Shown here: one piece after another, positions 963 to 10,164 of the stretch
How the letters are laid out: each line of letters opens with the position of its first letter
How positions within the stretch are numbered: the first letter of the stretch is position 1
Source of the DNA: a virus
DNA: 31,416 nt
Virus record (IMG/VR): IMGVR_UViG_3300028127_000017
Location: 1 to 31,416 of that record
Reading direction: 5' to 3' (one strand)
The notes under the pieces: model-generated
What the model was told of the DNA's origin: nothing
The model's database searches: none
Seen by the model: the letters and a program-made list of their open reading frames with translations, nothing else
Made by a program: the position numbers and the translations under genes

Positions 963-1721
963 TTAAAGGTAATCAAGCACTTGCGAGTGATCTACGTTAT
1001 CTATTAGCGTTTGTACTGCTTGCTTTTTCAACTCTGAAACAGTAACATAATAGCGCTTACCTTTGATATCTAATATCTCTGCAATCTCTTTTGCTGAGTG
1101 CTTATCACAATCTAAACCATAAGACAACCTCAATACTTCATACTCTCTTGCGTCTAAATGTTTTTTCATTAGACTTTTCAAGTAAGCATTCATTAAGTGA
1201 ATGTTATAAGGCTCAGACTTATCAGGTATTGATTCACTCCAGGATTCACCTTCATCTTCGTCGCTTCTAGCCGTGTCTATACTTAAAAACACTGAGTTGA
1301 AAAACAAAGCAACCGCTTTTTTATCATCAGGATTTTTACGTATTTCATTTAGCTTATGTTCTGGTATTCTAATGTTACCCCTACATATATCTATACGTCT
1401 TCTAATAGCTCCTTTGATTCGCTTGCTTAAGAATGACTTTAATGTTTTTTCAACGTCCTCAGACTCGTGTAAAACAGTCCAGTCTAATCGGTCAACAGCC
1501 TTAACTAATCCTTCACAACCGCATTGTATCAGATCATTGATGCTTAATACACCTGATGCTTGATCAGATGTAGAAAACTTTCTAGCTAAGTTCTCAACTA
1601 ATGGTATAAACTTTACTATAAGTTGATCTCTTGTATATTCATCCCAAAACAAACCTTCAGGCATAGATCTTTTTAGATCTTCTTTATACCTTATATAGTT
1701 TTGTATATTGTATTTTTTCAT
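963..1721 (-). CDS. phage-encoded sigma-70-type RNA polymerase sigma factor
   Basis: At 252 aa it is a short sigma factor with regions 2 and 4. Region 2 is near residues 60-115: DLIQCGCEGLVKAVDRLDW matches the sigma core-binding helix 'DLiQeG..GL..Av..fD', and a basic stretch (RIKGAIRRRID) follows. Region 4 is near residues 190-235, with a 'L..rE..vL.l.yGl' helix then AKEIAEILDIKGKRYYVTVSEL as the helix-turn-helix that would read the -35 element. No region 1.1 is seen. The first possible start is a GTG at 1742, but that lies inside the upstream promoter-like element, so the ATG at 1721-1719 (MKKYNIQ) is chosen. The gene is immediately downstream of one copy of the repeated left-arm promoter element, so the factor could drive its own synthesis and that of the other early units. 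Promoter specificity is inferred. Confidence 0.85.
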   Translation of the reverse strand: MKKYNIQNYIRYKEDLKRSMPEGLFWDEYTRDQLIVKFIPLVENLARKFSTSDQASGVLSINDLIQCGCEGLVKAVDRLDWTVLHESEDVEKTLKSFLSKRIKGAIRRRIDICRGNIRIPEHKLNEIRKNPDDKKAVALFFNSVFLSIDTARSDEDEGESWSESIPDKSEPYNIHLMNAYLKSLMKKHLDAREYEVLRLSYGLDCDKHSAKEIAEILDIKGKRYYVTVSELKKQAVQTLIDNVDHSQVLDYL

Positions 1722-1726
1722 ATCAT

Positions 1727-1761
1727 ATATATTATCGTGCACTCATCGTGTCCGTTCTGTA
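1727..1761 (-). promoter_or_regulatory. left-arm promoter element, copy 1 (sigma gene)
   Basis: On the minus strand: ACAGAACGGACACGA, nine bases, GATAATATA. It lies just upstream of the sigma factor ATG at 1721 and is the copy that deviates most at its 5' end. Confidence 0.68.
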
Positions 1762-1764
1762 ATT

Positions 1765-2385
1765 TTAAAATTCTTTGTTTAAAAGTGATTTTTCTTTTTT
1801 AAGTTCATTATTCATATTCCTGTGTATAGTTCTTGTAGAACAATTTAAAGACTCAGCTAACTTACTTATAGTTATTTTTTGATTGTCATGGTTTATTAAT
1901 AGCATAGCGTCATATATTTCACTTGATGAAATTTTGTTTCTACCTATCATTTGACCTACTATAGTAAGCTTTTGTCGCATATCTAACCCTGAACTATCTT
2001 TAAATATTATTTTACGAAGCTTATTAGGCGGAGGTTTTTCCAAATCCATAAGTGAAACATCGTATAACATAGTTTGTAATAGTTGCTCAGATACATTAAA
2101 TGTTACGAAGCCTTTAGTTTTATCACATATATACTCAATCAATGCGCTAAACGAGTCTTGATCCAATTGTGGATTCAAGTACCATAATACATACATATGC
2201 CACTTAAGGCTCTTATATGTATTTATTTTAGCTTTAGAGTTAAACAAAGTATAACATTCATGCGTTCCATTTTCATAAAACTTACCCCAATCAAAAGTTT
2301 CTGTAGGTAAATCATTTACTGGATCACGTCTGTATATTATACGATGCAACTCTAAATATCTTGTATTTCTTTCGTACTGTGACAT
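1765..2385 (-). CDS. helix-turn-helix DNA-binding protein
   Basis: This is a 206-aa protein. The C-terminal 40 residues carry a clear helix-turn-helix: ITISKLAESLNCSTRTIHRN, with the A-x3-G/N-x-S-x-RTI pattern typical of replication and transcription regulators, then a Lys-rich tail. The N-terminal 150 residues are rich in aromatics (FDWGKF, LKWHMYVLWYL) and match no domain I can name. The start at 2385-2383 lies inside the left half of a long inverted repeat (2379-2422), so the gene probably controls itself through that site or is controlled by whatever binds there. It is directly upstream of the sigma gene, with that gene's promoter element between them. A role as early regulator is inferred. 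A replication-initiation role is the main alternative. Confidence 0.6.
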   Translation of the reverse strand: MSQYERNTRYLELHRIIYRRDPVNDLPTETFDWGKFYENGTHECYTLFNSKAKINTYKSLKWHMYVLWYLNPQLDQDSFSALIEYICDKTKGFVTFNVSEQLLQTMLYDVSLMDLEKPPPNKLRKIIFKDSSGLDMRQKLTIVGQMIGRNKISSSEIYDAMLLINHDNQKITISKLAESLNCSTRTIHRNMNNELKKEKSLLNKEF

Positions 2386-2422
2386 TAGCCTCTTACTATT
2401 ATTATATACTAGCTATCGTCAC
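2379..2422. promoter_or_regulatory. GTGAC/TAGC long inverted repeat, site 1
   Basis: The left half GTGACATTAGC (2379-2389) and the right half GCTATCGTCAC (2412-2422) are an inverted repeat with a 22-bp AT-rich spacer. The right half read on the minus strand, GTGACGATAGC followed by TAGTATATAATAA, also looks like a promoter for the gene starting at 2385. That gene's ATG is inside the left half. Confidence 0.6.
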
Positions 2423-2423
2423 A

Positions 2424-2645
2424 CTAGTACACTATTAATTTTAATCTTCTGTTATACTTTTTTAAAAGCTTTGCTTTATTTTCTACATTACTGTATATAA
2501 CAGTTATACCTTTATTAAATTGAAATTCACCTTTAAAAGATTCAGCAATTATTTCACCGTGTAGCTCTGCTATCTTTAAGTGAAGAAACTTCACGTGTTT
2601 TGCTTTTCTTCTGTTCTTTTTGAATTTTTGTATTAATGTTCGCAT
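2424..2645 (-). CDS. small basic protein, unknown function
   Basis: A 73-aa, strongly basic protein with Lys/Arg clusters at both ends (KFKKNRRKAKHVK and KLLKKYNRRLK) around a short hydrophobic and acidic middle. I recognise no domain. Its start overlaps the 3' end of the upstream gene by 13 bases, and it is the last gene of the unit led by the promoter element at 3657. The charge suggests nucleic-acid binding, which is only an inference. Confidence 0.6.
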   Translation of the reverse strand: MRTLIQKFKKNRRKAKHVKFLHLKIAELHGEIIAESFKGEFQFNKGITVIYSNVENKAKLLKKYNRRLKLIVY

Positions 2646-3127
2646 AATTCGTTGATGTTGTGTGGACGTATAATTTTCTGCTCATTTTTGTTTTTTACTG
2701 TGTGTTTTTCGTTTTCGTAATAATTCCAGTAGCCAAGTACGCTATTACCGTTGACTTTATATTCGTCAGGCATACATTGCGGTGGCTGCTCGAAAGCTTT
2801 ATCAGATATACCGTTAGGCAAAGTGTATAGCACATCGCGGCATTTAGCGATTGTAAGATGTTCTTTACCGTAACGTTTTGTATATTCTTTACCAAGAGCT
2901 AACATATGTTCGTATGCCCACATATATGCTTCGGCAGAGGATCTAACCCATATAGCTGACGGATGGTTTTTATGCGTAGCTTTATATGGTATATCAATAT
3001 TAGTACCTAACTCGTGATGAGCTGTACATAATAGTTGTGCGGTTTCAAGTATCATTTTTACAACGTGCTTATTGTATTGATACTTAGCTGCTTGCACAGG
3101 ATCGTGAGATAGATAAAATATATTCAT
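2633..3127 (-). CDS. conserved phage protein (MNIFYL...HVVKMILETAQ family), unknown function
   Basis: A 164-aa protein of a family I recognise from many phages and some bacteria by its opening (MNIFYLSHDPVQAAKYQYNK, then HVVKMILETAQLLCTAHH) and by a THKNHPSAIWVRSS block followed by a 'Y..RYGK.H' helix. The many conserved His, Asp and Glu residues could form a metal or active site, but I know of no established function. The start overlaps the upstream stop as TAATG, i.e. translational coupling within the unit that begins at the KTSC gene. Confidence 0.8.
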   Translation of the reverse strand: MNIFYLSHDPVQAAKYQYNKHVVKMILETAQLLCTAHHELGTNIDIPYKATHKNHPSAIWVRSSAEAYMWAYEHMLALGKEYTKRYGKEHLTIAKCRDVLYTLPNGISDKAFEQPPQCMPDEYKVNGNSVLGYWNYYENEKHTVKNKNEQKIIRPHNINELCEH

Positions 3128-3411
3128 TACTTTAATTTTTTATTTAGGTTAATAATTTTATTATTTATTTTACTAGCTAATGTGAAGTTTTCATCCTCAA
3201 CTGCTTTGTCTAACTCTTGCTGTAGTTCGTCTATCTGCATGTGTATTATTTCTTGCTCAGACATCATACGCATATTACCAAAGCCGTCTTGTTTAATATT
3301 CTCCATTGATACTTGGAAGTCTTGATTCCATTCGTCTTGCTTTGCTTCTAAATGATCTATAATAATTTTAGCAGTTAGCTCGGCTATTTTAGTAATATCT
3401 TTTTCTGTCAT
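3127..3411 (-). CDS. small protein with UVR-like helical hairpin
   Basis: A 94-aa acidic, mostly helical protein. Residues about 58-94 (QIDELQQELDKAVEDENFTL, then ASKINNKIINLNKKL) have the pattern of the UVR motif, the two-helix segment of UvrB/UvrC and several stress-response adaptor proteins (I..L...L..A...E.F..A...r..I..L). The N-terminal half is a separate helix with no recognised match. The UVR motif normally makes protein-protein contacts. It sits between the KTSC gene and the MNIFYL-family gene in one unit, ending in a TAATG overlap with the next start. Confidence 0.6.
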   Translation of the reverse strand: MTEKDITKIAELTAKIIIDHLEAKQDEWNQDFQVSMENIKQDGFGNMRMMSEQEIIHMQIDELQQELDKAVEDENFTLASKINNKIINLNKKLK

Positions 3412-3414
3412 TTA

Positions 3415-3636
3415 TTATCTTTTAGTGAATTTAAATAATCTTTTAATGTTAGTGTTAATAAATTTACCTTTAGATTCAGCGTTCATTAATCCACGCCAAT
3501 AAAATAATGGTACGTCTTCGTACTCGTATACACCACCGTTTTCGTATATTAATACAAGCGTTTTGTTTTCGGTATAATATCTACCTGTTGAAATTGTTGA
3601 CGAATTGTCAGATCTAAATTTTTCAAAATTGTTCAT
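3415..3636 (-). CDS. KTSC-domain protein
   Basis: This 73-aa protein is essentially one KTSC domain. The family pattern (S..i....Y......L.v.y..G..Yey.dVP...y..l..A.S.G.f.n..Ik) is present: STISTGRYYTENKTLVLIYE, then GGVYEYEDVP, then NAESKGKFINTNIKRLF near residues 53-69. KTSC domains are found alone in phages or fused to replication-associated proteins, and have been suggested to bind nucleic acid. It is the first gene of a four-gene unit, 21 bases downstream of a promoter element copy. Confidence 0.8.
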   Translation of the reverse strand: MNNFEKFRSDNSSTISTGRYYTENKTLVLIYENGGVYEYEDVPLFYWRGLMNAESKGKFINTNIKRLFKFTKR

Positions 3637-3656
3637 AAGTTTTTTGTTTTTGTTTA

Positions 3657-3691
3657 TTATATTATCTTTGTTTGATCGTGTTCAGTCTGTA
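3657..3691 (-). promoter_or_regulatory. left-arm promoter element, copy 2
   Basis: Minus strand: ACAGACTGAACACGA, nine bases, GATAATATA. It leads the KTSC unit. The stop codon of the preceding micro-gene (TGA at 3684-3682) is formed by the ACTGAAC part of the element. Confidence 0.75.
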
Positions 3692-3762
3692 ATATCTTCT
3701 ATGTATAATAGTATTGTTAAACATAAAAGATACGCTATTATCCATATTATTATTGCTATCAT
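3682..3762 (-). CDS. 26-aa single-pass membrane micropeptide
   Basis: A 26-residue open frame that is almost wholly hydrophobic: MIAIIIWIIAYLLCLTILLY followed by a charged end (IEDITD). It would make one membrane helix. Support for reality comes from its placement: the ATG overlaps the stop codon of the GP88-family gene as TAATG, and its TGA stop lies inside the next promoter element. No relatives can be named. Small membrane peptides of phages often interfere with host membrane proteins, but that is only an analogy. Confidence 0.45.
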   Translation of the reverse strand: MIAIIIWIIAYLLCLTILLYIEDITD

Positions 3763-4367
3763 TAATGAAATACTAATCCTACTTTATTTGTTTTATTGAA
3801 CCACTTAGTAGCCATTAAATCAATAGAGCTGGCATCAGTATACGAAGCCCTATTAAGATCAGCATGGCTTGAGAAAATTTTTGTATGTCTATGTTTTGTC
3901 TCATCTATTAAATGTTTTTGTTTTCCAGAGTCACTGAATATTATATCGTAATTACTTGGTAATGAGGTTTTTAACATCATATCAATCATATTGGTGTAAC
4001 TGTAAAACCGTACGTTAGGATTGCTATTAGCAATGTCGATCCACTTTTTTAGATATGCGCGAGAATAATAATCGCCGCTATCATGGACTCTGACGTAATC
4101 AGGTTTCTTCTTACGTATTTCAGCGTTCATAGCATCAACAAACATGTCAGTCTTGCTGAGTTGATAACGCTTTTCAAACGCAGGTTTTACGTTACTCCAG
4201 ATGTAGGCTCCTTTCTTGGCATAACAGAATTTAACACAACTGTCAGCCATTGGGCACGTCAGTTTCCCGCTAGCAGATTTGTAGGCAGGAATACCGAAGT
4301 TAAAGACCCGGAGCCCGAGTTCTTTTGATGTTTTTTTAAGTTTAGTATTTTGTGTTAATAAGTTCAT
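3762..4367 (-). CDS. GP88-family phage protein
   Basis: A 201-aa protein of the phage 'gene product 88' family. The family landmarks are visible in order: NFGIPAYKS, then a cysteine cluster CPMADSCVKFCYAKKG (residues about 38-53, C-x6-C-x3-C), then YVRVHDSGDYYSRAYLKKW (about 91-109), then RFYSYTNM. The Cys cluster followed by CYA resembles metal or Fe-S binding sites. The biochemical role of the family is not established. It is first in its unit, about 12 bases downstream of a promoter element copy, and its stop overlaps the start of a membrane micropeptide. Confidence 0.8.
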   Translation of the reverse strand: MNLLTQNTKLKKTSKELGLRVFNFGIPAYKSASGKLTCPMADSCVKFCYAKKGAYIWSNVKPAFEKRYQLSKTDMFVDAMNAEIRKKKPDYVRVHDSGDYYSRAYLKKWIDIANSNPNVRFYSYTNMIDMMLKTSLPSNYDIIFSDSGKQKHLIDETKHRHTKIFSSHADLNRASYTDASSIDLMATKWFNKTNKVGLVFH

Positions 4368-4378
4368 AGTTTTTGTTT

Positions 4379-4414
4379 ATTATATTATCGATCAGCGATC
4401 GTGTTTAGTTTGTA
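4379..4414 (-). promoter_or_regulatory. left-arm promoter element, copy 3
   Basis: Minus strand: ACAAACTAAACACGA, nine bases, GATAATATA. It is a near-perfect consensus copy in front of the GP88-family gene and abuts the stop codon of the upstream gene. Confidence 0.78.
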
Positions 4415-4678
4415 TTAATCAAGCAACACCATATATGCTTCAACATTATTTTTACGAAACCAGTTCAACGCTTTTTGAAACTCGCTAACTTGTTTAGGTG
4501 TAACTGTTTTAGGTGCTACTTCAAATATATATTGGCTACCCATAATATAATCGTACATTGAGAGCTCGAGGCTGTTGAGTGTATAGCATTCGCCACTGAA
4601 CGGATTGGTTACTGTTTCACCTTCACCATATATGGTTCCTTTAAACCATTTAGGTACTGTTTGTTTTTTAGTTTTCAT
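4415..4678 (-). CDS. conserved phage protein (WFKGTIYGEGETVTNPFSG), unknown function
   Basis: An 87-aa protein with an N-terminal block WFKGTIYGEGETVTNPFSGE and a helical second half (LELSMYDYIMGSQ, then FQKALNWFRKNN). I recognise the first block from other marine phages, where the protein has no assigned role. It is the last of four overlapping genes transcribed from the promoter element at 5780, with an 11-base overlap with the gene before it. A copy of the TGCTATACA word (4580-4588) is embedded in its coding sequence. Confidence 0.7.
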   Translation of the reverse strand: MKTKKQTVPKWFKGTIYGEGETVTNPFSGECYTLNSLELSMYDYIMGSQYIFEVAPKTVTPKQVSEFQKALNWFRKNNVEAYMVLLD

Positions 4679-5327
4679 TTTTTAATTCTTTAAATATTAA
4701 TTCACCTTTAACAGCTCTTTCGATAGTTAGACCATAATGATTAGCTACAATCTCATACCTGGCTCTGTCTTTAATTATTTGACTAGCATAGTTTAAGTAC
4801 CTATAGTCTTCATCTACTGTTAGATTTATAGCTCTTGAGCTACCGTCTAAAAAACTACAATCTTGAGAGATCATTTCTATGTATTGCAGTGTATTTATAG
4901 GGTTAACTATTTTATGGTTATAACCTTCATTAAGTAACTCATCTATAATTTCGTCTTCCATTTTACATAATAGATCTTCGTAGTGTCTAGTGATAGCATC
5001 TTCAACAAAGTCATAGTTGTCACAGTATATCTGATTGTAGTCAGGTATTACTTCGTATAACGCGTCTGTAAGTTCGTTTTCATAGTAGTACACATCTTCG
5101 TTTACGTTTATACGAGTTGTATCAGCGGCAGCTATCCATACAGAGTAGCCATCAGCGGTTGACTCTTCATATATACTGAAGTCAGGGTTTTGCCATTGAT
5201 CTGTTACCTCACACTCATAGTGTGCAAGTACTTGGTTTCTAGCATGCTCATCATCACAACCTTCAATCCAACCTTTTGATTCCATTCTTTGAGCTATTAA
5301 CTCATCGGTTATATATTTATTCTTCAT
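4668..5327 (-). CDS. acidic protein of unknown function
   Basis: A 219-aa, strongly acidic protein rich in Asp, Glu and Tyr, for example NEDVYYYENELTDALYEVIP and KMEDEIIDELLNEGY. No domain is recognised. No signal peptide or membrane segment is present. It overlaps both neighbours by 11 bases, so it is translated as part of a tight four-gene unit. Its charge would suit a DNA mimic or protein-binding inhibitor, but nothing in the sequence proves that. Confidence 0.7.
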   Translation of the reverse strand: MKNKYITDELIAQRMESKGWIEGCDDEHARNQVLAHYECEVTDQWQNPDFSIYEESTADGYSVWIAAADTTRINVNEDVYYYENELTDALYEVIPDYNQIYCDNYDFVEDAITRHYEDLLCKMEDEIIDELLNEGYNHKIVNPINTLQYIEMISQDCSFLDGSSRAINLTVDEDYRYLNYASQIIKDRARYEIVANHYGLTIERAVKGELIFKELKNEN

Positions 5328-5532
5328 CTGTTTCTATTAATTTAGTGATGTATTGCCACACCTTTAATTCTATTTTATTACTGTTTAATACTATATCCAT
5401 CTCGTGTGATGTAACACCTCCGTAGTTACCTGTACGTATATCTTCTTTGTTTTGCTCGATCGTAATCAAGAGCATAGACATTTTAGCGAAAGCTTTGTCG
5501 CTTGCTCGTTGTTGTAGTTCTTGTTTAGTCAT
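5317..5532 (-). CDS. small helical protein, unknown function
   Basis: A 71-aa, mainly helical protein (ELQQRASDKAFAKMSMLLIT, then NKIELKVWQYITKLIETDEE). Not recognised. It overlaps the upstream gene by 8 bases and the downstream gene by 11 bases, which supports it as an expressed member of the unit at 4415-5758. Confidence 0.6.
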   Translation of the reverse strand: MTKQELQQRASDKAFAKMSMLLITIEQNKEDIRTGNYGGVTSHEMDIVLNSNKIELKVWQYITKLIETDEE

Positions 5533-5758
5533 CGCTATCTATTAAAATGTTATCGCCAAACCTGTAGTCCCACGCTGATACTCTGAGTGCATTTATATTA
5601 CACATATCGTAGATATCTCTGATCTCGCTTATAGTTAGCTCACCGTAAAACTTACTGCTTTCTAGTTTAGCAATAATTCTTGTTGACGTAAACTTGTAAT
5701 CACTTTGATTAATAAGTTTAATGTACTTAGGTTTAATTGATTGTAGTAAATTGCTCAT
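5525..5758 (-). CDS. small protein, unknown function
   Basis: A 77-aa protein with a basic N-terminus (SIKPKYIKLINQ) and an acidic end (FGDNILIDSDD). Not recognised. It is the first gene of a four-gene overlapping unit, about 25 bases downstream of a consensus promoter element. Confidence 0.6.
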   Translation of the reverse strand: MSNLLQSIKPKYIKLINQSDYKFTSTRIIAKLESSKFYGELTISEIRDIYDMCNINALRVSAWDYRFGDNILIDSDD

Positions 5759-5779
5759 GTTATTTGTATTTTAAATTCA

Positions 5780-5815
5780 TATATATTATCGATAGGTAGT
5801 CGTGTTTAGTTTGTA
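5780..5815 (-). promoter_or_regulatory. left-arm promoter element, copy 4
   Basis: Minus strand: ACAAACTAAACACGA, nine bases, GATAATATA. It leads the four-gene unit 5758-4415. The stop codon of the upstream gene is two bases from its 5' end. Confidence 0.78.
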
Positions 5816-5816
5816 A

Positions 5817-6020
5817 TTAATCTTGGTATTTTTTAAGTGTCATACTATTTACTTTATCAATGATCTCATTACCTACCATAGTGAAATAACCGGGTGCATA
5901 CAATGATCTTTTACCTTCAGATTCAGTAGCTAATACATCTTTTTCTGCTTCTTCAATAGCGTGTCTTAACGCTGTTTGAATGAAATACTTTTCAAATCCG
6001 TTAAATTTTGTTTTACTCAT
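5817..6020 (-). CDS. small helical protein, unknown function
   Basis: A 67-aa protein starting MSKTKFNGFEKYFIQTALRH. It has a helical N-terminal half and a short YAPGYFTMVGNEIIDKVN block. Not recognised. The open frame extends upstream to an ATG at 6086, but those 22 codons run through the tRNA-like hairpin at 6041-6093, so the ATG at 6020-6018 is preferred. The nearest promoter element is the copy at 6281, so this gene would be translated from the 3' end of the structured transcript described there. Confidence 0.6.
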   Translation of the reverse strand: MSKTKFNGFEKYFIQTALRHAIEEAEKDVLATESEGKRSLYAPGYFTMVGNEIIDKVNSMTLKKYQD

Positions 6021-6278
6021 TTTATTTAATTTTAAATTAGCGGACGTACGGGAATCGAACCCGTTTGAAGTTATCTTCGTTACCATATCGTCCTACCCAG
6101 ACATTTCCTAGCCACATAGTGGAGACGTTATTTATTCGCTGGGTTTGTTAACATTCCTGAGTTCATAACGATCCCTCACCAGTTCAGTTAACTTTTATAA
6201 AGAAGCGTGATCGGCGTCTAACTCATTTTCATCATTAGATATACCGGCCGGTCCACCGATGTTTGCTTCCGTATTACA
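6021..6278 (-). ncRNA. candidate structured non-coding RNA / gene-free leader
   Basis: About 260 bases with their own promoter element upstream and no convincing ATG-started gene. On the minus strand it contains a 10-bp palindrome ACCGGCCGGT (6244-6253), a long hairpin closed by GTTAAC at 6187-6192 and 6147-6152 with a second pairing CTGA/TCAG inside, a CCAC-TAT-GTGG hairpin (6113-6123), and at its 3' end the tRNA-like module. It is more GC-rich than its surroundings. One frame reads like protein but lacks a start and has an internal TAA (about 6271-6134), so a decayed gene is the main alternative. Confidence 0.4.
6041..6093 (-). other. tRNA-like element (T arm and acceptor) lacking D and full anticodon arms
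   Basis: Read on the minus strand, ACGGG-TTCGATT-CCCGT (6064-6048) is a perfect 5-bp T stem with a canonical 7-base T loop. It is followed directly by ACGTCCG. The CGTCC of that tail pairs with GGACG at 6093-6089. Between these lie TATGGTAAC, resembling a D loop, and a short hairpin GAAG-ATAA-CTTC. The whole is about 53 nt, too short for a working canonical tRNA. It may be a tRNA relic, an attachment-site half tRNA, or the 3' module of the structured RNA. Confidence 0.45.
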
Positions 6279-6280
6279 TT

Positions 6281-6314
6281 TATATTATCATTGGGTGATC
6301 GTGTTTTGTTTGTA
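6281..6314 (-). promoter_or_regulatory. left-arm promoter element, copy 5
   Basis: Minus strand: ACAAACAAAACACGA, nine bases, GATAATATA. It precedes the structured region 6278-6021 rather than an ATG. The last six codons and TGA stop of the upstream gene (6288-6479) are spelled by the element itself. Confidence 0.75.
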
Positions 6315-6479
6315 CATTATTTCGATCGCACGTTGCATTACTTGCTGGTGTATAGCATTGTAGTCGTCACCGTCGGCGGGATAATCGCCTAGTTGCCAGT
6401 CAATACTGTCTTCCATTAGTTCGAGAGTTATGTTAGCGACGCTCTCCGCTATTTCGTATAAGTTTCTTTTATTGCTCAT
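6288..6479 (-). CDS. small acidic protein, unknown function
   Basis: A 63-aa protein, mostly helical with an acidic centre (MEDSIDWQLGDYPADGDDYN). Not recognised. Its C-terminus QNTITQ and TGA stop are encoded by the promoter element for the next unit. Its start overlaps the stop of the 39-aa gene upstream by 11 bases. A TGCTATAC word lies at 6349-6357 within it. Confidence 0.55.
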   Translation of the reverse strand: MSNKRNLYEIAESVANITLELMEDSIDWQLGDYPADGDDYNAIHQQVMQRAIEIMYKQNTITQ

Positions 6480-6588
6480 ATATTCTAGTTTTTAATTCAT
6501 TTACTTTTTCTTGTAAGTACCAATCATCTTCGTAGTTGAGGTTGATGTACATTGATAATTCTTGTAATAGATCCGCTGCTAACTTCAT
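6469..6588 (-). CDS. 39-aa helical protein, unknown function
   Basis: MKLAADLLQELSMYINLNYE then DDWYLQEKVNELKTRIYEQ: a small amphipathic helical peptide of 39 residues. It is placed exactly between two neighbours: the preceding gene's stop is at 6590 and its own 3' end overlaps the next start by 11 bases. This spacing is the main reason to accept it. Confidence 0.55.
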   Translation of the reverse strand: MKLAADLLQELSMYINLNYEDDWYLQEKVNELKTRIYEQ

Positions 6589-6589
6589 A

Positions 6590-6772
6590 TTATTGTTTTT
6601 TTAAGTAAGTTAATCCTTTGTAGTTGAACCACTCAGTTATACCTTCTTGATCTTTATCTTCGTTGTAGATAAAACCGAACGTTGATGGTAACTCACCGAC
6701 AAGATATGGTTTATATACTTTACCGTTTAATACTATTTGTTTTGAGTGGATAAATTTAATTGTATTTTTCAT
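6590..6772 (-). CDS. 60-aa protein, unknown function
   Basis: Reads MKNTIKFIHSKQIVLNGKVY and then a compact beta-rich stretch (FGFIYNEDKDQEGITEWFNY). Not recognised. It is the first gene of a three-gene unit, about 20 bases downstream of a promoter element copy. Confidence 0.55.
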   Translation of the reverse strand: MKNTIKFIHSKQIVLNGKVYKPYLVGELPSTFGFIYNEDKDQEGITEWFNYKGLTYLKKQ

Positions 6773-6791
6773 TATATTAGTTTTAGATTCG

Positions 6792-6827
6792 TATATATTA
6801 TCAATCTTTAATCGTATTCAGTTTGTA
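6792..6827 (-). promoter_or_regulatory. left-arm promoter element, copy 6
   Basis: Minus strand: ACAAACTGAATACGA, nine bases, GATAATATA. It leads the unit 6772-6288. The stop TGA of the upstream gene (6803-6801) is made by the GATTGATAA junction of the element. Confidence 0.75.
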
Positions 6828-7055
6828 AAAATCTTTTACCGCTTTTTCGGTTAGAGGTTTTAAGCTTTTATGGTATTCTACATTATCTATGTAGTAGTCG
6901 ATCGCTTCTTGCATTCTCTTTTCAGTGAACTTTGTAAACACGCTTACATCTGTGTGTTTGAGTAGATCAACGTCGTTGCATTGGTACATTGTTGACGTGA
7001 CATCTTGCCAATTTGTTACTTGAATTTCTTTATATGAATAACCTCTATGCTCCAT
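6801..7055 (-). CDS. 84-aa protein, unknown function
   Basis: A helical, slightly acidic protein (for example EKRMQEAIDYYIDNVEYHKS). Not recognised. It starts within the last codons of the upstream gene (11-base overlap), and its C-terminus LNTIKD is encoded by the next promoter element. Confidence 0.6.
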   Translation of the reverse strand: MEHRGYSYKEIQVTNWQDVTSTMYQCNDVDLLKHTDVSVFTKFTEKRMQEAIDYYIDNVEYHKSLKPLTEKAVKDFYKLNTIKD

Positions 7056-7299
7056 TATTTACATTTATTGTTACTTCTACCCAGCCTTTTTCAGAGTGAC
7101 CAGCGTATACTCTTAAGCCGTCATTCACTAGTATATCTACTAATTTTTGCGCTGCTCGCCAAAGACTTGGTTCTGGCATTTCATCGTGTTCGTCGTCGTA
7201 CATTACTTCGCCTCTACATTGGTAGAATATATCATTTACATCGTTTTCTACTAGTTCAAAATCCCAACCGTTCACGGTTATATTTTCACATAATTCCAT
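7045..7299 (-). CDS. 84-aa acidic protein, unknown function
   Basis: An acidic protein with a predicted alpha/beta layout: a strand-rich start (ITVNGWDFELVEND), a helix (SLWRAAQKLVDILVNDG), then LRVYAGHSEKGWVEVTINV as two strands. Not recognised. It is the second gene of the unit led by the promoter at 7400. Its start lies three bases after the stop of the 25-aa micro-gene. Confidence 0.6.
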   Translation of the reverse strand: MELCENITVNGWDFELVENDVNDIFYQCRGEVMYDDEHDEMPEPSLWRAAQKLVDILVNDGLRVYAGHSEKGWVEVTINVNNGA

Positions 7300-7301
7300 A
7301 G

Positions 7302-7379
7302 TTAATTTCTTATTGCCCAGGCCGCCGCGGTGCCAAGATCGGTTAATACTCTGTTTGCTTTACTTAATAGTTTTCTCAT
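7302..7379 (-). CDS. 25-aa micropeptide, unknown function
   Basis: MRKLLSKANRVLTDLGTAAA then WAIRN. It is the first open frame after the promoter element at 7400, and its stop is three bases from the next ATG. Basic and amphipathic. It could be a real micro-gene or a leader peptide for the following gene. Confidence 0.4.
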   Translation of the reverse strand: MRKLLSKANRVLTDLGTAAAWAIRN

Positions 7380-7399
7380 TGTTTATTATTTTAATTTCG

Positions 7400-7435
7400 T
7401 ATATATTATCAATAGGTGATCGTATTTAGTTTGTA
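7400..7435 (-). promoter_or_regulatory. left-arm promoter element, copy 7
   Basis: Minus strand: ACAAACTAAATACGA, nine bases, GATAATATA. The TAA in ACTAAAT is also the stop codon of the upstream gene (7428-7426). Confidence 0.78.
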
Positions 7436-7647
7436 GTCACTGGTTGGTTGTAGTGGTTCCACAATTTAGTGTGGGAGAACGATCTACCTTTACTACCTGA
7501 TCCTTTACCTTTAGTTTTCACTTTTCGGTATTCTTTCGCTGTCAACCCTGAGCAATATTCACCCTGAGTTACTGTTTTGCGGTGATGTATAGCATCCGCT
7601 TTTCTCTTTTGTGCGACGTATGCACACACTTCTTTCATTGTCATCAT
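7426..7647 (-). CDS. 73-aa basic protein, unknown function
   Basis: A basic, Lys- and Gly-rich protein (VKTKGKGSGSKGRSFSHTKL). Not recognised; nucleic-acid binding is plausible from charge only. The start could be either the first Met or the Met three codons in (MMTMKEV). Its stop codon is part of promoter copy 7. It contains a TGCTATACATCACC word (7586 region) shared exactly with the intergenic copy at 8164-8178. Confidence 0.55.
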   Translation of the reverse strand: MMTMKEVCAYVAQKRKADAIHHRKTVTQGEYCSGLTAKEYRKVKTKGKGSGSKGRSFSHTKLWNHYNQPVTTN

Positions 7648-7648
7648 A

Positions 7649-7735
7649 TTATTCTTGATTATTATTTATTAACCACATTAACTGTGCATACTCTTCATAC
7701 TCTTGTTCGCTATTAAATCCGTGATATTCTTTCAT
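7649..7735 (-). CDS. 28-aa acidic micropeptide, unknown function
   Basis: MKEYHGFNSEQEYEEYAQLM then WLINNNQE. It fits between two genes with one base on each side (upstream stop at 7737, downstream ATG at 7647), which is the evidence that it is translated. Not recognised. Confidence 0.45.
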   Translation of the reverse strand: MKEYHGFNSEQEYEEYAQLMWLINNNQE

Positions 7736-7736
7736 A

Positions 7737-7943
7737 TTATTCTACTTTAAATGTATTAGGTAATAATGGTACTAAATGTCTTGCCACTGAAGTTCCGTTG
7801 TTAGCGTGATCACATATTAGTTGGGCTAACTCACCTTGCATAGTAAATAGTTCTTCTTGATCGATTAGGTCGCATAGGAAAAAATTGTCGCCACCTAGTA
7901 TTTCTATAAATTCTTCAATAAATTCAACATTTTTTGGTTTCAT
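7737..7943 (-). CDS. 68-aa acidic protein, unknown function
   Basis: Starts MKPKNVEFIEEFIEILGGDN and is acidic and helical, ending RHLVPLLPNTFKVE. Not recognised. The frame is open further upstream to 8057, but those codons run through the promoter element at 7964 and the repeat region, so the ATG at 7943-7941 is taken as the start. First gene of a three-gene unit. Confidence 0.6.
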   Translation of the reverse strand: MKPKNVEFIEEFIEILGGDNFFLCDLIDQEELFTMQGELAQLICDHANNGTSVARHLVPLLPNTFKVE

Positions 7944-7963
7944 AAGTATTATTTTTAAATTCA

Positions 7964-8000
7964 CATATATTATCGTTAGGTGATCGTATTTGTTTTGTAA
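7964..8000 (-). promoter_or_regulatory. left-arm promoter element, copy 8
   Basis: Minus strand: ACAAAACAAATACGA, nine bases, GATAATATA. It lies about 21 bases upstream of the ATG at 7943. Confidence 0.72.
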
Positions 8001-8044
8001 AGGTGTAAAAATATTAGTGAGTAAAAATAGTAGAGAAAGTATTA

Positions 8045-8141
8045 CACTACCTCTCAAAGTGAGTAAAACTAGGTAATTTCACTACAAATAGAGTGTTTTT
8101 TAGTTAATTTGCCTACAAAGTGGAGGTTTTTAGGTGATTTT
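8045..8141. repeat. iteron-like imperfect repeats, about 31-35 bp
   Basis: Three adjoining units start CACTACCTC (8045), CACTACAAA (8080) and GCCTACAAA (8111). Each continues with an AGTG or GAGG, a T- or A-run, and ends in TAATTT or GATTTT. Each unit has short self-complementary ends (CACT...AGTG, CCT...AGG). A further half unit, GTGAGTAAAA, is at 8014. Tandem units of this size in a gene-free control region resemble replication-origin iterons or protein-binding arrays. Confidence 0.4.
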
Positions 8142-8277
8142 CACTTAAGATCGTAGCATATTGGGTGATGTATAGCATTTAAACGTCGCGTAGGGCGGAG
8201 TCTACTCTTCCGGTGTATAGCAAAATACCCAGGCCAAGCCTCGCAACGGAACTTCCGAAGCGGTAAGGTTAAAAAGT
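8142..8277. other. gene-free GC-rich stretch next to inverted-repeat site 2
   Basis: No start-to-stop gene is credible here. The stretch is clearly richer in GC than its surroundings. It holds two TGTATAGCA words (8169 and 8214) and a CGGAA-c-TTCCG hairpin near 8246-8257. If transcribed from the minus-strand side of the site at 8278-8322 it would be a short untranslated RNA. Confidence 0.35.
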
Positions 8278-8322
8278 GTGACGTTAGCTTGTTATATTAA
8301 TATAATAGTAGGCTATTGTCAC
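8278..8322. promoter_or_regulatory. GTGAC/TAGC long inverted repeat, site 2
   Basis: GTGACGTTAGC (8278-8288) and GCTATTGTCAC (8312-8322) form an inverted repeat with a 23-bp spacer. The spacer centre TATATTAATATA is itself self-complementary, so a -10-like element can be read both ways. Confidence 0.62.
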
Positions 8323-8331
8323 GTTTTTTGT

Positions 8332-8427
8332 TTACTCTTCGTTATCGAATTCTGCCCATTCCAGGCATGATCCACATAACTCGTCTGATAGATAGCTCGC
8401 TTCTGAGCCGCAGCAATTTGAATACAT
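8332..8427 (-). CDS. 31-aa Cys-cluster micropeptide (possible zinc knuckle)
   Basis: Starts MYSNCCGSEASYLSDELCGS and ends CLEWAEFDNEE. Two Cys pairs, CC at residues 5-6 and C-x2-C at 18-21, could bind one zinc ion in the manner of small phage zinc-ribbon proteins. It is alone in its unit, 20 bases downstream of a promoter element, and its end is close to inverted-repeat site 2. Confidence 0.55.
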   Translation of the reverse strand: MYSNCCGSEASYLSDELCGSCLEWAEFDNEE

Positions 8428-8445
8428 AATTTTTGTTTTATTTGT

Positions 8446-8480
8446 TAATATTATCGTTTGTTACTCGTGTTTGTGTTGTC
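8446..8480 (-). promoter_or_regulatory. left-arm promoter element, copy 9
   Basis: Minus strand: ACAACACAAACACGA, nine bases, GATAATATT. It precedes the 31-aa Cys-cluster gene. Confidence 0.68.
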
Positions 8481-8497
8481 AGGGGTTGATCCTAAGA

Positions 8498-8836
8498 CTA
8501 CTTTTCAGTAGCCTCAGTTTCAATTGTTACACGATCTGACAGATGTCTCGTGTTAGCCGGCATATCAGTCGACTGTGACCAGTATCCACGTTTGATCCAA
8601 CATGGCATGATGTTTAGTTTCGGGAGCATTAGTTCCAGTACTTCATCGTGATTGTACGTTACTTTGACACTTGGCTTTGTCTTAGTCGCTTTCGTGTTGA
8701 AAGTTATGATTTGATTTCGGCCGAGCCATGATTTACGGACTACGAAGTTGGCTCTTGTGATCGGAGGGAAGATAGTCGCTTTTTCTTCGTTTGACATGTT
8801 TGCGATCGCGTTTGTAATTAATTCTTGATTTGACAT
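8498..8836 (-). CDS. 112-aa protein, unknown function
   Basis: A 112-residue, slightly basic protein. The N-terminus is helical (NQELITNAIANMSNEEKATI), and the middle is beta-rich and aromatic (FVVRKSWLGRNQIITFNTKA, IKRGYWSQSTDMP). Not recognised. It forms a single-gene unit about 40 bases downstream of a promoter element. Confidence 0.65.
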   Translation of the reverse strand: MSNQELITNAIANMSNEEKATIFPPITRANFVVRKSWLGRNQIITFNTKATKTKPSVKVTYNHDEVLELMLPKLNIMPCWIKRGYWSQSTDMPANTRHLSDRVTIETEATEK

Positions 8837-8878
8837 AATTTAAATTTATTTAGTTATTATTATTTTATTTGTTATTCA

Positions 8879-8914
8879 CTTATATTATCGAATTGTCTTC
8901 GTATTTAGTTTGTA
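8879..8914 (-). promoter_or_regulatory. left-arm promoter element, copy 10
   Basis: Minus strand: ACAAACTAAATACGA, nine bases, GATAATATA. The TAA inside ACTAAAT (8907-8905) is the stop codon of the 35-aa gene upstream. Confidence 0.78.
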
Positions 8915-9012
8915 TATTCTTTTTCAATTTCTATTAGAACTTTGATATATTCGTTTAGATCTTTTTGATTTACTATTTTTTCTATTTTTAATAATTTTTC
9001 TAAGTTATTCAT
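8905..9012 (-). CDS. 35-aa helical micropeptide, unknown function
   Basis: Starts MNNLEKLLKIEKIVNQKDLN and ends with an amphipathic Glu/Lys helix closing YTN. Leu/Ile spacing would allow a short coiled coil. It has its own promoter element about 26 bases upstream, and its stop is inside the next element. Confidence 0.5.
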   Translation of the reverse strand: MNNLEKLLKIEKIVNQKDLNEYIKVLIEIEKEYTN

Positions 9013-9037
9013 AATTTATATTTTATTTGTTATTCAC

Positions 9038-9073
9038 TTATATTATCGAAATGAGATCGTGTTCACTCTGTCA
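9038..9073 (-). promoter_or_regulatory. left-arm promoter element, copy 11
   Basis: Minus strand: ACAGAGTGAACACGA, nine bases, GATAATATA. It leads the 35-aa gene. Confidence 0.75.
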
Positions 9074-9076
9074 AAA

Positions 9077-9137
9077 TGCTATACGCAGTATGCTATACGT
9101 GCTATACAGCCTTCGGCTGCGCCTCCGGTCCTGAGCA
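9077..9137. other. TGCTATAC triplet and GC-rich hairpin
   Basis: Three TGCTATAC words begin at 9077, 9091 and 9100. They are followed by CAGCC-TTC-GGCTG, a perfect hairpin near 9108-9120, and CTGAG-catta-CTCAG at 9131-9145, which overlaps the stop of the 46-aa gene. This may terminate or process the minus-strand transcript ending there, but no U-run follows in that direction. Confidence 0.35.
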
Positions 9138-9278
9138 TTACTCAGTCGTGTTCCAAGCCTTGAGCTGGGCTGAGGTCAGTTGCTGTTCCCTGGTCTGATC
9201 CTTAGTCTGGTCTCCGATCCAGATACATTGCACGTAACTGGTTCCATCTGGTCTGGTTCTGATTTCTGATCTGTACAT
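9138..9278 (-). CDS. 46-aa polar protein, unknown function
   Basis: Starts MYRSEIRTRPDGTSYVQCIW and continues IGDQTKDQTREQQLTSAQLK. The start overlaps the stop of the 55-aa gene by one base (TAATG), and codon use is more GC-rich than in the rest of the arm. Not recognised. Confidence 0.5.
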   Translation of the reverse strand: MYRSEIRTRPDGTSYVQCIWIGDQTKDQTREQQLTSAQLKAWNTTE

Positions 9279-9445
9279 TATATTATATCTAATTTAGTTA
9301 GTATGTCTTCAAGTATATCTTCTTCAAGGAATTGATCCTGGTCGTAGTCTGTTTTCATGATCTCGATGTAGGCTTTGATCTGGTCAACCTGTCCTGGGTA
9401 TCTGTCGTAGATCTGTTGATCTATTCTGGTTACTATTGGTTTCAT
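9278..9445 (-). CDS. 55-aa acidic protein, unknown function
   Basis: Starts MKPIVTRIDQQIYDRYPGQV and ends in an acidic helix (FLEEDILEDILTKLDII). It is the first gene of a two-gene unit and the most upstream gene of the left arm, with a promoter element about 25 bases upstream. Not recognised. Confidence 0.55.
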   Translation of the reverse strand: MKPIVTRIDQQIYDRYPGQVDQIKAYIEIMKTDYDQDQFLEEDILEDILTKLDII

Positions 9446-9468
9446 ATCTTATATTTATTTTAGATTCA

Positions 9469-9505
9469 CTTATATTATCGGATCTCCATCGTATTCGTCT
9501 TGTAC
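9469..9505 (-). promoter_or_regulatory. left-arm promoter element, copy 12
   Basis: Minus strand: ACAAGACGAATACGA, nine bases, GATAATATA. It is the rightmost copy; none was seen on the right arm. Confidence 0.72.
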
Positions 9506-9780
9506 AAATGCTATACAAACGGCAAGCCGTAAGCCGTAGCCGAACCACAACCAGAAGCCGAACAGCCAGGGTCCAGATGCCAGTAAGCCGCACCGCAGTA
9601 CCAGACCCGATAGCATAAGCCTGAACCTGCACCGTAAACCGCACCGAAAAGCCGAAACCGTGTGCCAAAGCCGAAAAAAAGGCCGGGGGCCCCTAAAACT
9701 AAAACGCGTTTTCCTATAGGATTGTCGAGGTAATGTAAAGGTGCAACCCCATCACTCTCTATTTGCAACGTTTTTTTATT
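9506..9780. other. GC-rich low-complexity stretch without a credible gene
   Basis: About 200 bases (9515-9712) of irregular GCCG-rich repeats (AAGCCG, GCACCG) stand out against the AT-rich genome. They end in a run of palindromes: GGGGGCCCC near 9685, AAAACGCGTTTT near 9705 and CCTATAGG near 9713. All three minus frames stay open simply because TA-containing stops are rare here. The proteins would be Gly/aromatic or Leu/Trp-rich, and no frame has both a good start and a promoter. A non-coding RNA, an origin or a foreign insert are possible. Confidence 0.35.
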
Positions 9781-9789
9781 TCAACAAGT

Positions 9790-9833
9790 GTGACATTAGC
9801 TAGTTATATATATTAATAAGAGGCTATCGTCGC
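9790..9833. promoter_or_regulatory. GTGAC/TAGC long inverted repeat, site 3 (between the two arms)
   Basis: GTGACATTAGC (9790-9800) and GCTATCGTCGC (9823-9833) form an inverted repeat with a 22-bp spacer containing TATATATATTAATA. It is the last shared control site before the plus-strand late genes begin at 9898, so it is the best candidate for an early/late switch or a bidirectional promoter. Confidence 0.62.
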
Positions 9834-9897: not shown

Positions 9898-10164
9898 ATG
9901 GCAAAACCAAGAAGAAAAGGCGGACCGAAGCAAAAATTAAGTCCAGCAGCAGCGAAGGCTAAGGCAATCAGGGACAAGAAGTACGCTATGACCGACAGAA
10001 GAAGGAGATTTAAAGCTGAGAGTCAAAGAAAGGATTGTCCTAAAGGACACGATTACGACCATAATACTAAAAGATGTGTTACATCGTCTCATAACAGAGG
10101 TGGAACGCAGGGTAAGAGTAAAAAAGACGGTACTAAGGCAGAAAGAAGACAAAATAAAAAATAA
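9898..10164 (+). CDS. small basic Lys/Arg-rich protein, probable virion or DNA-binding protein
   Basis: An 88-aa protein with very high Lys/Arg content at both ends (PRRKGGPKQKL at the start, KKDGTKAERRQNKK at the end). The centre carries CPKGHDYDHNTKRCV (residues about 48-62), a C-x3-H...C arrangement that could bind a metal. It is the first gene of the right arm and sits three bases before a tail-fibre-like gene. Its charge suggests DNA or RNA binding, perhaps packaged with the genome. That is an inference from composition. Confidence 0.6.
   Translation: MAKPRRKGGPKQKLSPAAAKAKAIRDKKYAMTDRRRRFKAESQRKDCPKGHDYDHNTKRCVTSSHNRGGTQGKSKKDGTKAERRQNKK

Follow-up and report, generated by a model that had tools for sequence, protein, structure and literature searches.

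The analysed stretch, hereafter the window, is a 31,416-base IMG/VR virus record whose terminase is closest to that of MW202828 (65% identity) and then to those of the Flavobacterium 'elemo' phages (45%); these matches indicate that it is a fragment of a podovirus-like Bacteroidota phage, with a full genome of probably ~60 kb. The minus strand carries a leftward arm between ~9.45 kb and the left end, with small genes, a helix-turn-helix (HTH) gene and genes for a sigma-70-like factor and an ERF recombinase; rightward genes extend from 9898 via GroEL/GroES-like genes to the terminase. Three dyads of the design GTGACRWTAGC-N22/23-inverted copy, each 44–45 bp long, are found among these genes:

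963..1742, minus strand: sigma-70-like factor of the phage, encoded 3' of the HTH gene (TIGR02937, E 1.6e-15; PHROG 351)
1765..2385, minus strand: 206-aa regulator, presumed binder of O1–O3 (Pfam HTH_11)
2379..2422, minus strand: O1, class-1 site, 44-bp dyad (exact match)
8278..8322, plus strand: O2, class-2 site, a dyad of 45 bp within the leftward early arm (exact match)
8498..8836, minus strand: gp8498, early-arm gene between O2 and O3 (open reading frame; marker of class-2 placement)
9790..9833, plus strand: O3, class-3 site, 44-bp dyad between the early and late arms (one mismatch)
9898..10164, plus strand: gp9898, which leads the rightward late arm immediately after O3 (open reading frame; homologues adjoin class-3 sites)

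The arms read GTGACATTAGC-N22-GCTATCGTCAC in O1, GTGACGTTAGC-N23-GCTATTGTCAC in O2 and GTGACATTAGC-N22-GCTATCGTCGC in O3. O1 occupies positions -37 to +7 relative to the coding start of the HTH gene, spanning its start codon and the 38-bp gap behind the upstream gene; the ATG (complement of 2383–2385) falls in the right-hand half-site, where the minus strand reads GCTA-ATG-TCAC. O2 is flanked by AAAAAGT...GTTTTTT, and O3 ends 64 bp 5' of the first late gene. A sequence-only reading of the window had reported dyads at these three positions, one on the HTH start codon and one between the early and late arms, and all of this is borne out; its description of each site as a pair of GTGACRWTAGC half-sites fits O1 and O2 exactly and needs correcting at the right arm of O3 (GCGACGATAGC), which has a single mismatch to the half-site.

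That reading had also judged a chance origin very unlikely, and the counts agree. Lone 11-mers with two mismatches occur in the window at chance level (29 found vs 21.7 expected), and the reversed-pattern control for the paired arrangement gave 0 matches there. Among 37 genomes, complete or partial and read in pieces (36 in the related or site-bearing set; the window and MW202828 are counted), gaps of 22, 23 and 24 bp account for 39, 37 and 14 dyads with at most three mismatches, or 90 matches in all, compared with at most three at each other gap from 10 to 39 and none at gaps 22–24 in the reversed sequence of the same genomes; these counts are not all independent, because G002, G003 and G004 are near-duplicates that almost belong to the window's own species. 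When IMG/VR was searched for the exact pattern with any gap of 18–28 allowed, 59 stretches matched, and 37 distinct sites from a set of loci that includes the window have gaps of 22 (15), 23 (21) and 24 (1) only. The three dyads and their paired spacing are not due to chance.

A leftward promoter-like motif, TACAAACTAAACACGAT-N8-CGATAATATA, is present in 12 minus-strand copies between 1720 and 9504 of the window (starting at 1720, 3650, 4373, 5774, 6273, 6786, 7394, 7958, 8439, 8873, 9031 and 9463). It precedes early genes and the sigma gene, occurs in relatives only in the early-gene direction and was not found in MW202828. The sigma gene, whose true start is probably the ATG at 1721, has its own early-type motif at 1720–1761. 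Separately, the 8-mer GTATAGCA has 11 copies, on either strand, all in the first 9.9 kb (e.g. 8171, 8213 and 9098), and the early arm of MW202828 (L082) carries 14 exact copies of another, 16-bp palindrome, GTGTCGTTAACGACAC, which lie at 43745–50740 and on to record position 55154, many of them near gene starts.

The 206-aa protein combines a family-specific N-terminal domain with a C-terminal HTH that matches HTH_11 at residues 162–191 (E 9e-7; 29.1 bits, above the curated cut-off of 25), giving it the kind of DNA-binding domain expected of a phage transcription regulator. An AlphaFold2 model (mean pLDDT 83, pTM 0.60) places helices at 154–204, and a TRTxxRN segment is invariant among homologues. 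The recognition region of the protein and the half-site are both nearly invariant, so that co-variation between site and protein is uninformative. A whole-fold search of the PDB with the model gave no match and a profile search of PDB sequences returned no solved relative; predicted viral structures yielded one convincing fold match, a 234-residue protein. In the annotated phage collection neither the HTH protein nor the sigma protein had a match, and divergent members used as queries against it gave chance-level matches only.

Following the suggestion of the sequence-only reading that gene and sites be sought together in relatives, we used the HTH protein as sole query in an unbiased test of 79 homologues with enough upstream sequence, scoring the dyad in a 160-bp stretch about the start of the match, with up to four mismatches and gaps of 12–33 allowed. 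A dyad is present at the gene start in 76 of the 79, every one with a gap of 22–24, and the reversed control gave 0 sites, never with fewer than seven mismatches; inverted-repeat sites at the regulator's own gene are thus conserved with the regulator, as expected of autoregulated phage regulators. The three exceptions form one clade, in which the dyad is kept ~1.1 kb upstream of the HTH gene. In L240 (8867–10060), and also in L241 and L242, an HNH-endonuclease reading frame stands between the class-1 dyad and the HTH gene; this insertion is possibly an intron or homing element. AATGTC occurs in 48 of 51 distinct class-1 sites, which means that the half-site GCTA-ATG-TCAC itself spells the start codon. 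Where the half-site instead reads GCTAACGTCAC or GCTTACGTCAC (G023 and G037), the dyad persists and the ATG lies ~15 nt further downstream, indicating that the site is retained as DNA even where it does not supply the start codon. All 20 site-bearing genomes of at least 58 kb contain the HTH gene, and MW202828 has neither an HTH homologue nor a dyad. The HTH and sigma genes are found together almost always, so that co-occurrence alone cannot tell them apart; in G014 the sigma gene is 2.2 kb off and the site remains with the HTH gene.

With classes assigned after orienting the late genes rightward, many genomes hold one site per class. Of 32 loci with a gp9898 homologue, 23 have a class-3 site in the 250 bp preceding that gene (reversed control, 0 sites), mostly ending 36–65 nt 5' of the late start codon; the other 9 show no recognisable class-3 site. 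Class-2 sites fall in the leftward early arm, mostly near the gp8498 gene or its duplicates (the gene is duplicated in several relatives), at no fixed distance from any single gene. In nine relatives a leftward early-promoter motif lies 67–92 bp downstream of the class-2 site, and in G007 the two overlap at the downstream end of the motif; in the window, ~280 bp separate O2 from the next downstream leftward copy. We also observed a highly conserved non-coding element, GTAGGACGGAGTCTACTCTTCCG...CAGGCC, at 8190–8235 of the window; it lies near the class-2 site in many relatives, with two per genome in some, and forms a weak hairpin without an Rfam match. At 8330–8425, on the minus strand, an unlisted reading frame of ~31 aa with a Cys pair pattern ends just before the class-2 site. 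A conserved small hairpin, TAATCATAC-NNN-GTATGA, stands between the class-3 site and the late gene in G006, G008, G009, G011, G013 and G023, just 5' of, or at, the first late gene's start.

Aligned sites show that the half-site extends to approximately AAAANTGTGACRWTAGCYTNTTACTAT, with an inner TTACTAT stretch and, in classes 2 and 3, a flank rich in A, and that the half-sites are about three helical turns apart. The conserved portions of the dyad are two identical arms, as would be expected for a symmetric protein binder; its centre is among the least conserved parts, and the gap varies from 22 to 24 bp. In 61 of 71 distinct sites position 7, with each arm read along its own strand, is T on one side of the dyad and A on the opposite side, and the arms are thus non-complementary at this position in most sites, an excess over pooled shuffles (0/100,000, phylogeny ignored). 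This asymmetry is unexpected under a perfectly symmetric homodimer.

The same features bear on whether the dyads could instead act as RNA hairpins, controlling translation of the HTH gene at its start codon and terminating transcription before T-runs at O2 and O3. Single-strand folds of the dyads are stable (z from -1.7 to -5.1), and A- and T-runs flank O2; however, overall Watson-Crick pairing between the arms is no better than the independent-column expectation, T-runs are missing at class-1 sites, and an Rfam search of the window found no match. The lack of base-pair covariation indicates that the dyad acts as DNA, and the conserved position-7 mismatch argues against an RNA stem, leaving this explanation very improbable. 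Binding by another phage or host protein, for replication, partition or genome organisation, is somewhat less remote and still quite improbable: large AT-rich dyads with A-tract flanks beside the early/late divergence do resemble origin or nucleoprotein sites, but the class-1 site is locked to the start codon of one gene throughout the family, and host chromosomes make essentially no use of the dyad. Among 84,980 GTDB species we found 12 matches, of which four resemble the dyad element (L207, L209, L211 and L214), three of these adjoining a phage gene of the window's family, and the other eight look unrelated. A host-encoded binding factor was rejected, host contigs being without the dyad save for a few phage-like contigs in metagenome bins.

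In the main rival explanation, the dyads consist of, or chiefly harbour, promoters for the phage sigma factor, an inner TATAATAGTA-like stretch serving as the -10 element; transcription would proceed toward the HTH gene from O1 and toward the late genes from O3. This rival owes its standing to the conserved TATAATAG-like stretch in the gene-proximal inner half and to the scant space that the 36–65 nt after class-3 sites leave for another promoter. In addition, the inner half beside the HTH start (AATAGTAA.AGG) is better conserved than the other half, and the HTH gene lacks the early promoter motif that precedes the sigma gene. Yet a promoter has no need of near-identical inverted arms at a 22–24 bp gap, the bases of the centre are poorly conserved, O2 in the window would fire antisense to the early genes, and the separate 12-copy motif already resembles a phage promoter; we therefore regard the promoter explanation as unlikely. 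When both directions were checked for -35/-10 elements, the TATAATAG-like stretch proved conserved on one side only and the arms symmetric. The sequence-only reading had offered, as its second option, face-to-face promoters sharing a central TATTAATA; this found no support, given the poorly conserved centre, the variable gap and the symmetric arms, and two such promoters are unlikely to be the main function of the dyads. A single promoter embedded in the dyad is possible, and a combined promoter-operator is quite possible and would leave the operator claim unchanged. Promoters for a single-subunit phage RNA polymerase were rejected, no such polymerase appearing among the scanned proteins; that scan took a 2,575-aa virion protein, which has no family, from residue 286 on, and there may be a divergent virion RNA polymerase.

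The dyad is a real regulatory element, conserved phylogenetically and with a likely protein partner, and we consider it probable, on comparative sequence grounds, that the dyads are operators of an autoregulated 206-aa HTH protein that form an early/late switch. This was the first option of the sequence-only reading, and it stands in part, on the comparative evidence of co-occurrence, start-codon overlap and a site class at the early/late boundary. That the HTH protein is the binder and that O1 serves autoregulation are inferences, as is the direction of control at the other two sites. A symmetric HTH oligomer would bind both inverted half-sites; at O1 it would cover its own promoter and start region and limit its own synthesis, whereas at O2 and O3 it would lower transcription of the leftward early arm and allow or activate that of the rightward late arm. 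In this way the HTH protein would move the phage from its early to its late programme. Two features of the system are unusual, namely the location of the start codon inside the operator and the conserved position-7 asymmetry. A more elaborate version, to which we assign a low probability, is a new-family lytic switch in which one oligomer bridges the three operators, ~1.5 and 6 kb apart, together with the phage sigma factor, and in which the occupied start-codon operator shuts both the promoter and the translation start; if so, the T/A asymmetry at position 7 would reflect a directional dimer with non-equivalent subunits.

Gene timing in phages of aquatic Bacteroidota is poorly known, and the family, with 322 relatives of the regulator in IMG/VR, is represented in the annotated phage collection by no member that carries the protein. 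The analysis names one regulator and exact candidate sites in a large, abundant, uncultured phage group, which makes the early-to-late switch testable, and the operator sequence can be used as a genomic signature of the group. Phage regulators with operators are already known, and the window's regulator and sites add another.

Among related phages, the Elemovirus Flavobacterium phage elemoA shares its terminase family and overall layout with the window, and a 302-residue reading frame in it is a weak, distant match to the N-terminal domain of the HTH protein (E 6e-5); unlike the window, elemoA has no GTGAC dyads, and no sigma-factor homologue was detected in it. Lambda-type repressors are autoregulated and have operators at their own gene or promoter and at divergent promoters, an arrangement that is also predicted for the window. 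Lambda-type operators, however, are short (~17 bp, compared with the 44–45 bp dyads of the window) and function in lysogeny; a scan of the larger proteins of the window showed no integrase, and Pfam does not identify the regulator as a lambda-repressor relative.

The closest functional parallel is phi29 p4, an early protein that acts on long imperfect inverted repeats with A-tracts, situated between leftward early and rightward late promoters, where early transcription is repressed and late transcription activated (PMC3100819). Both systems have long inverted repeats between divergent early and late arms (in the window, O3; among relatives, 23 of 32 loci). The p4 sites differ in having the form CTTTTT-15 bp-AAAATG, with sites 1–4 grouped in the interval that separates the early promoters from the late one, and, as far as the account in PMC3100819 goes, an operator on the p4 start codon like O1 is not described. 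Phi29 p4 was not among the profile matches to PDB sequences or the listed Foldseek matches for the regulator. The best reading of these comparisons is a switch that would work like that of phi29 p4, operated by a regulator that appears not to be homologous to any solved regulator.
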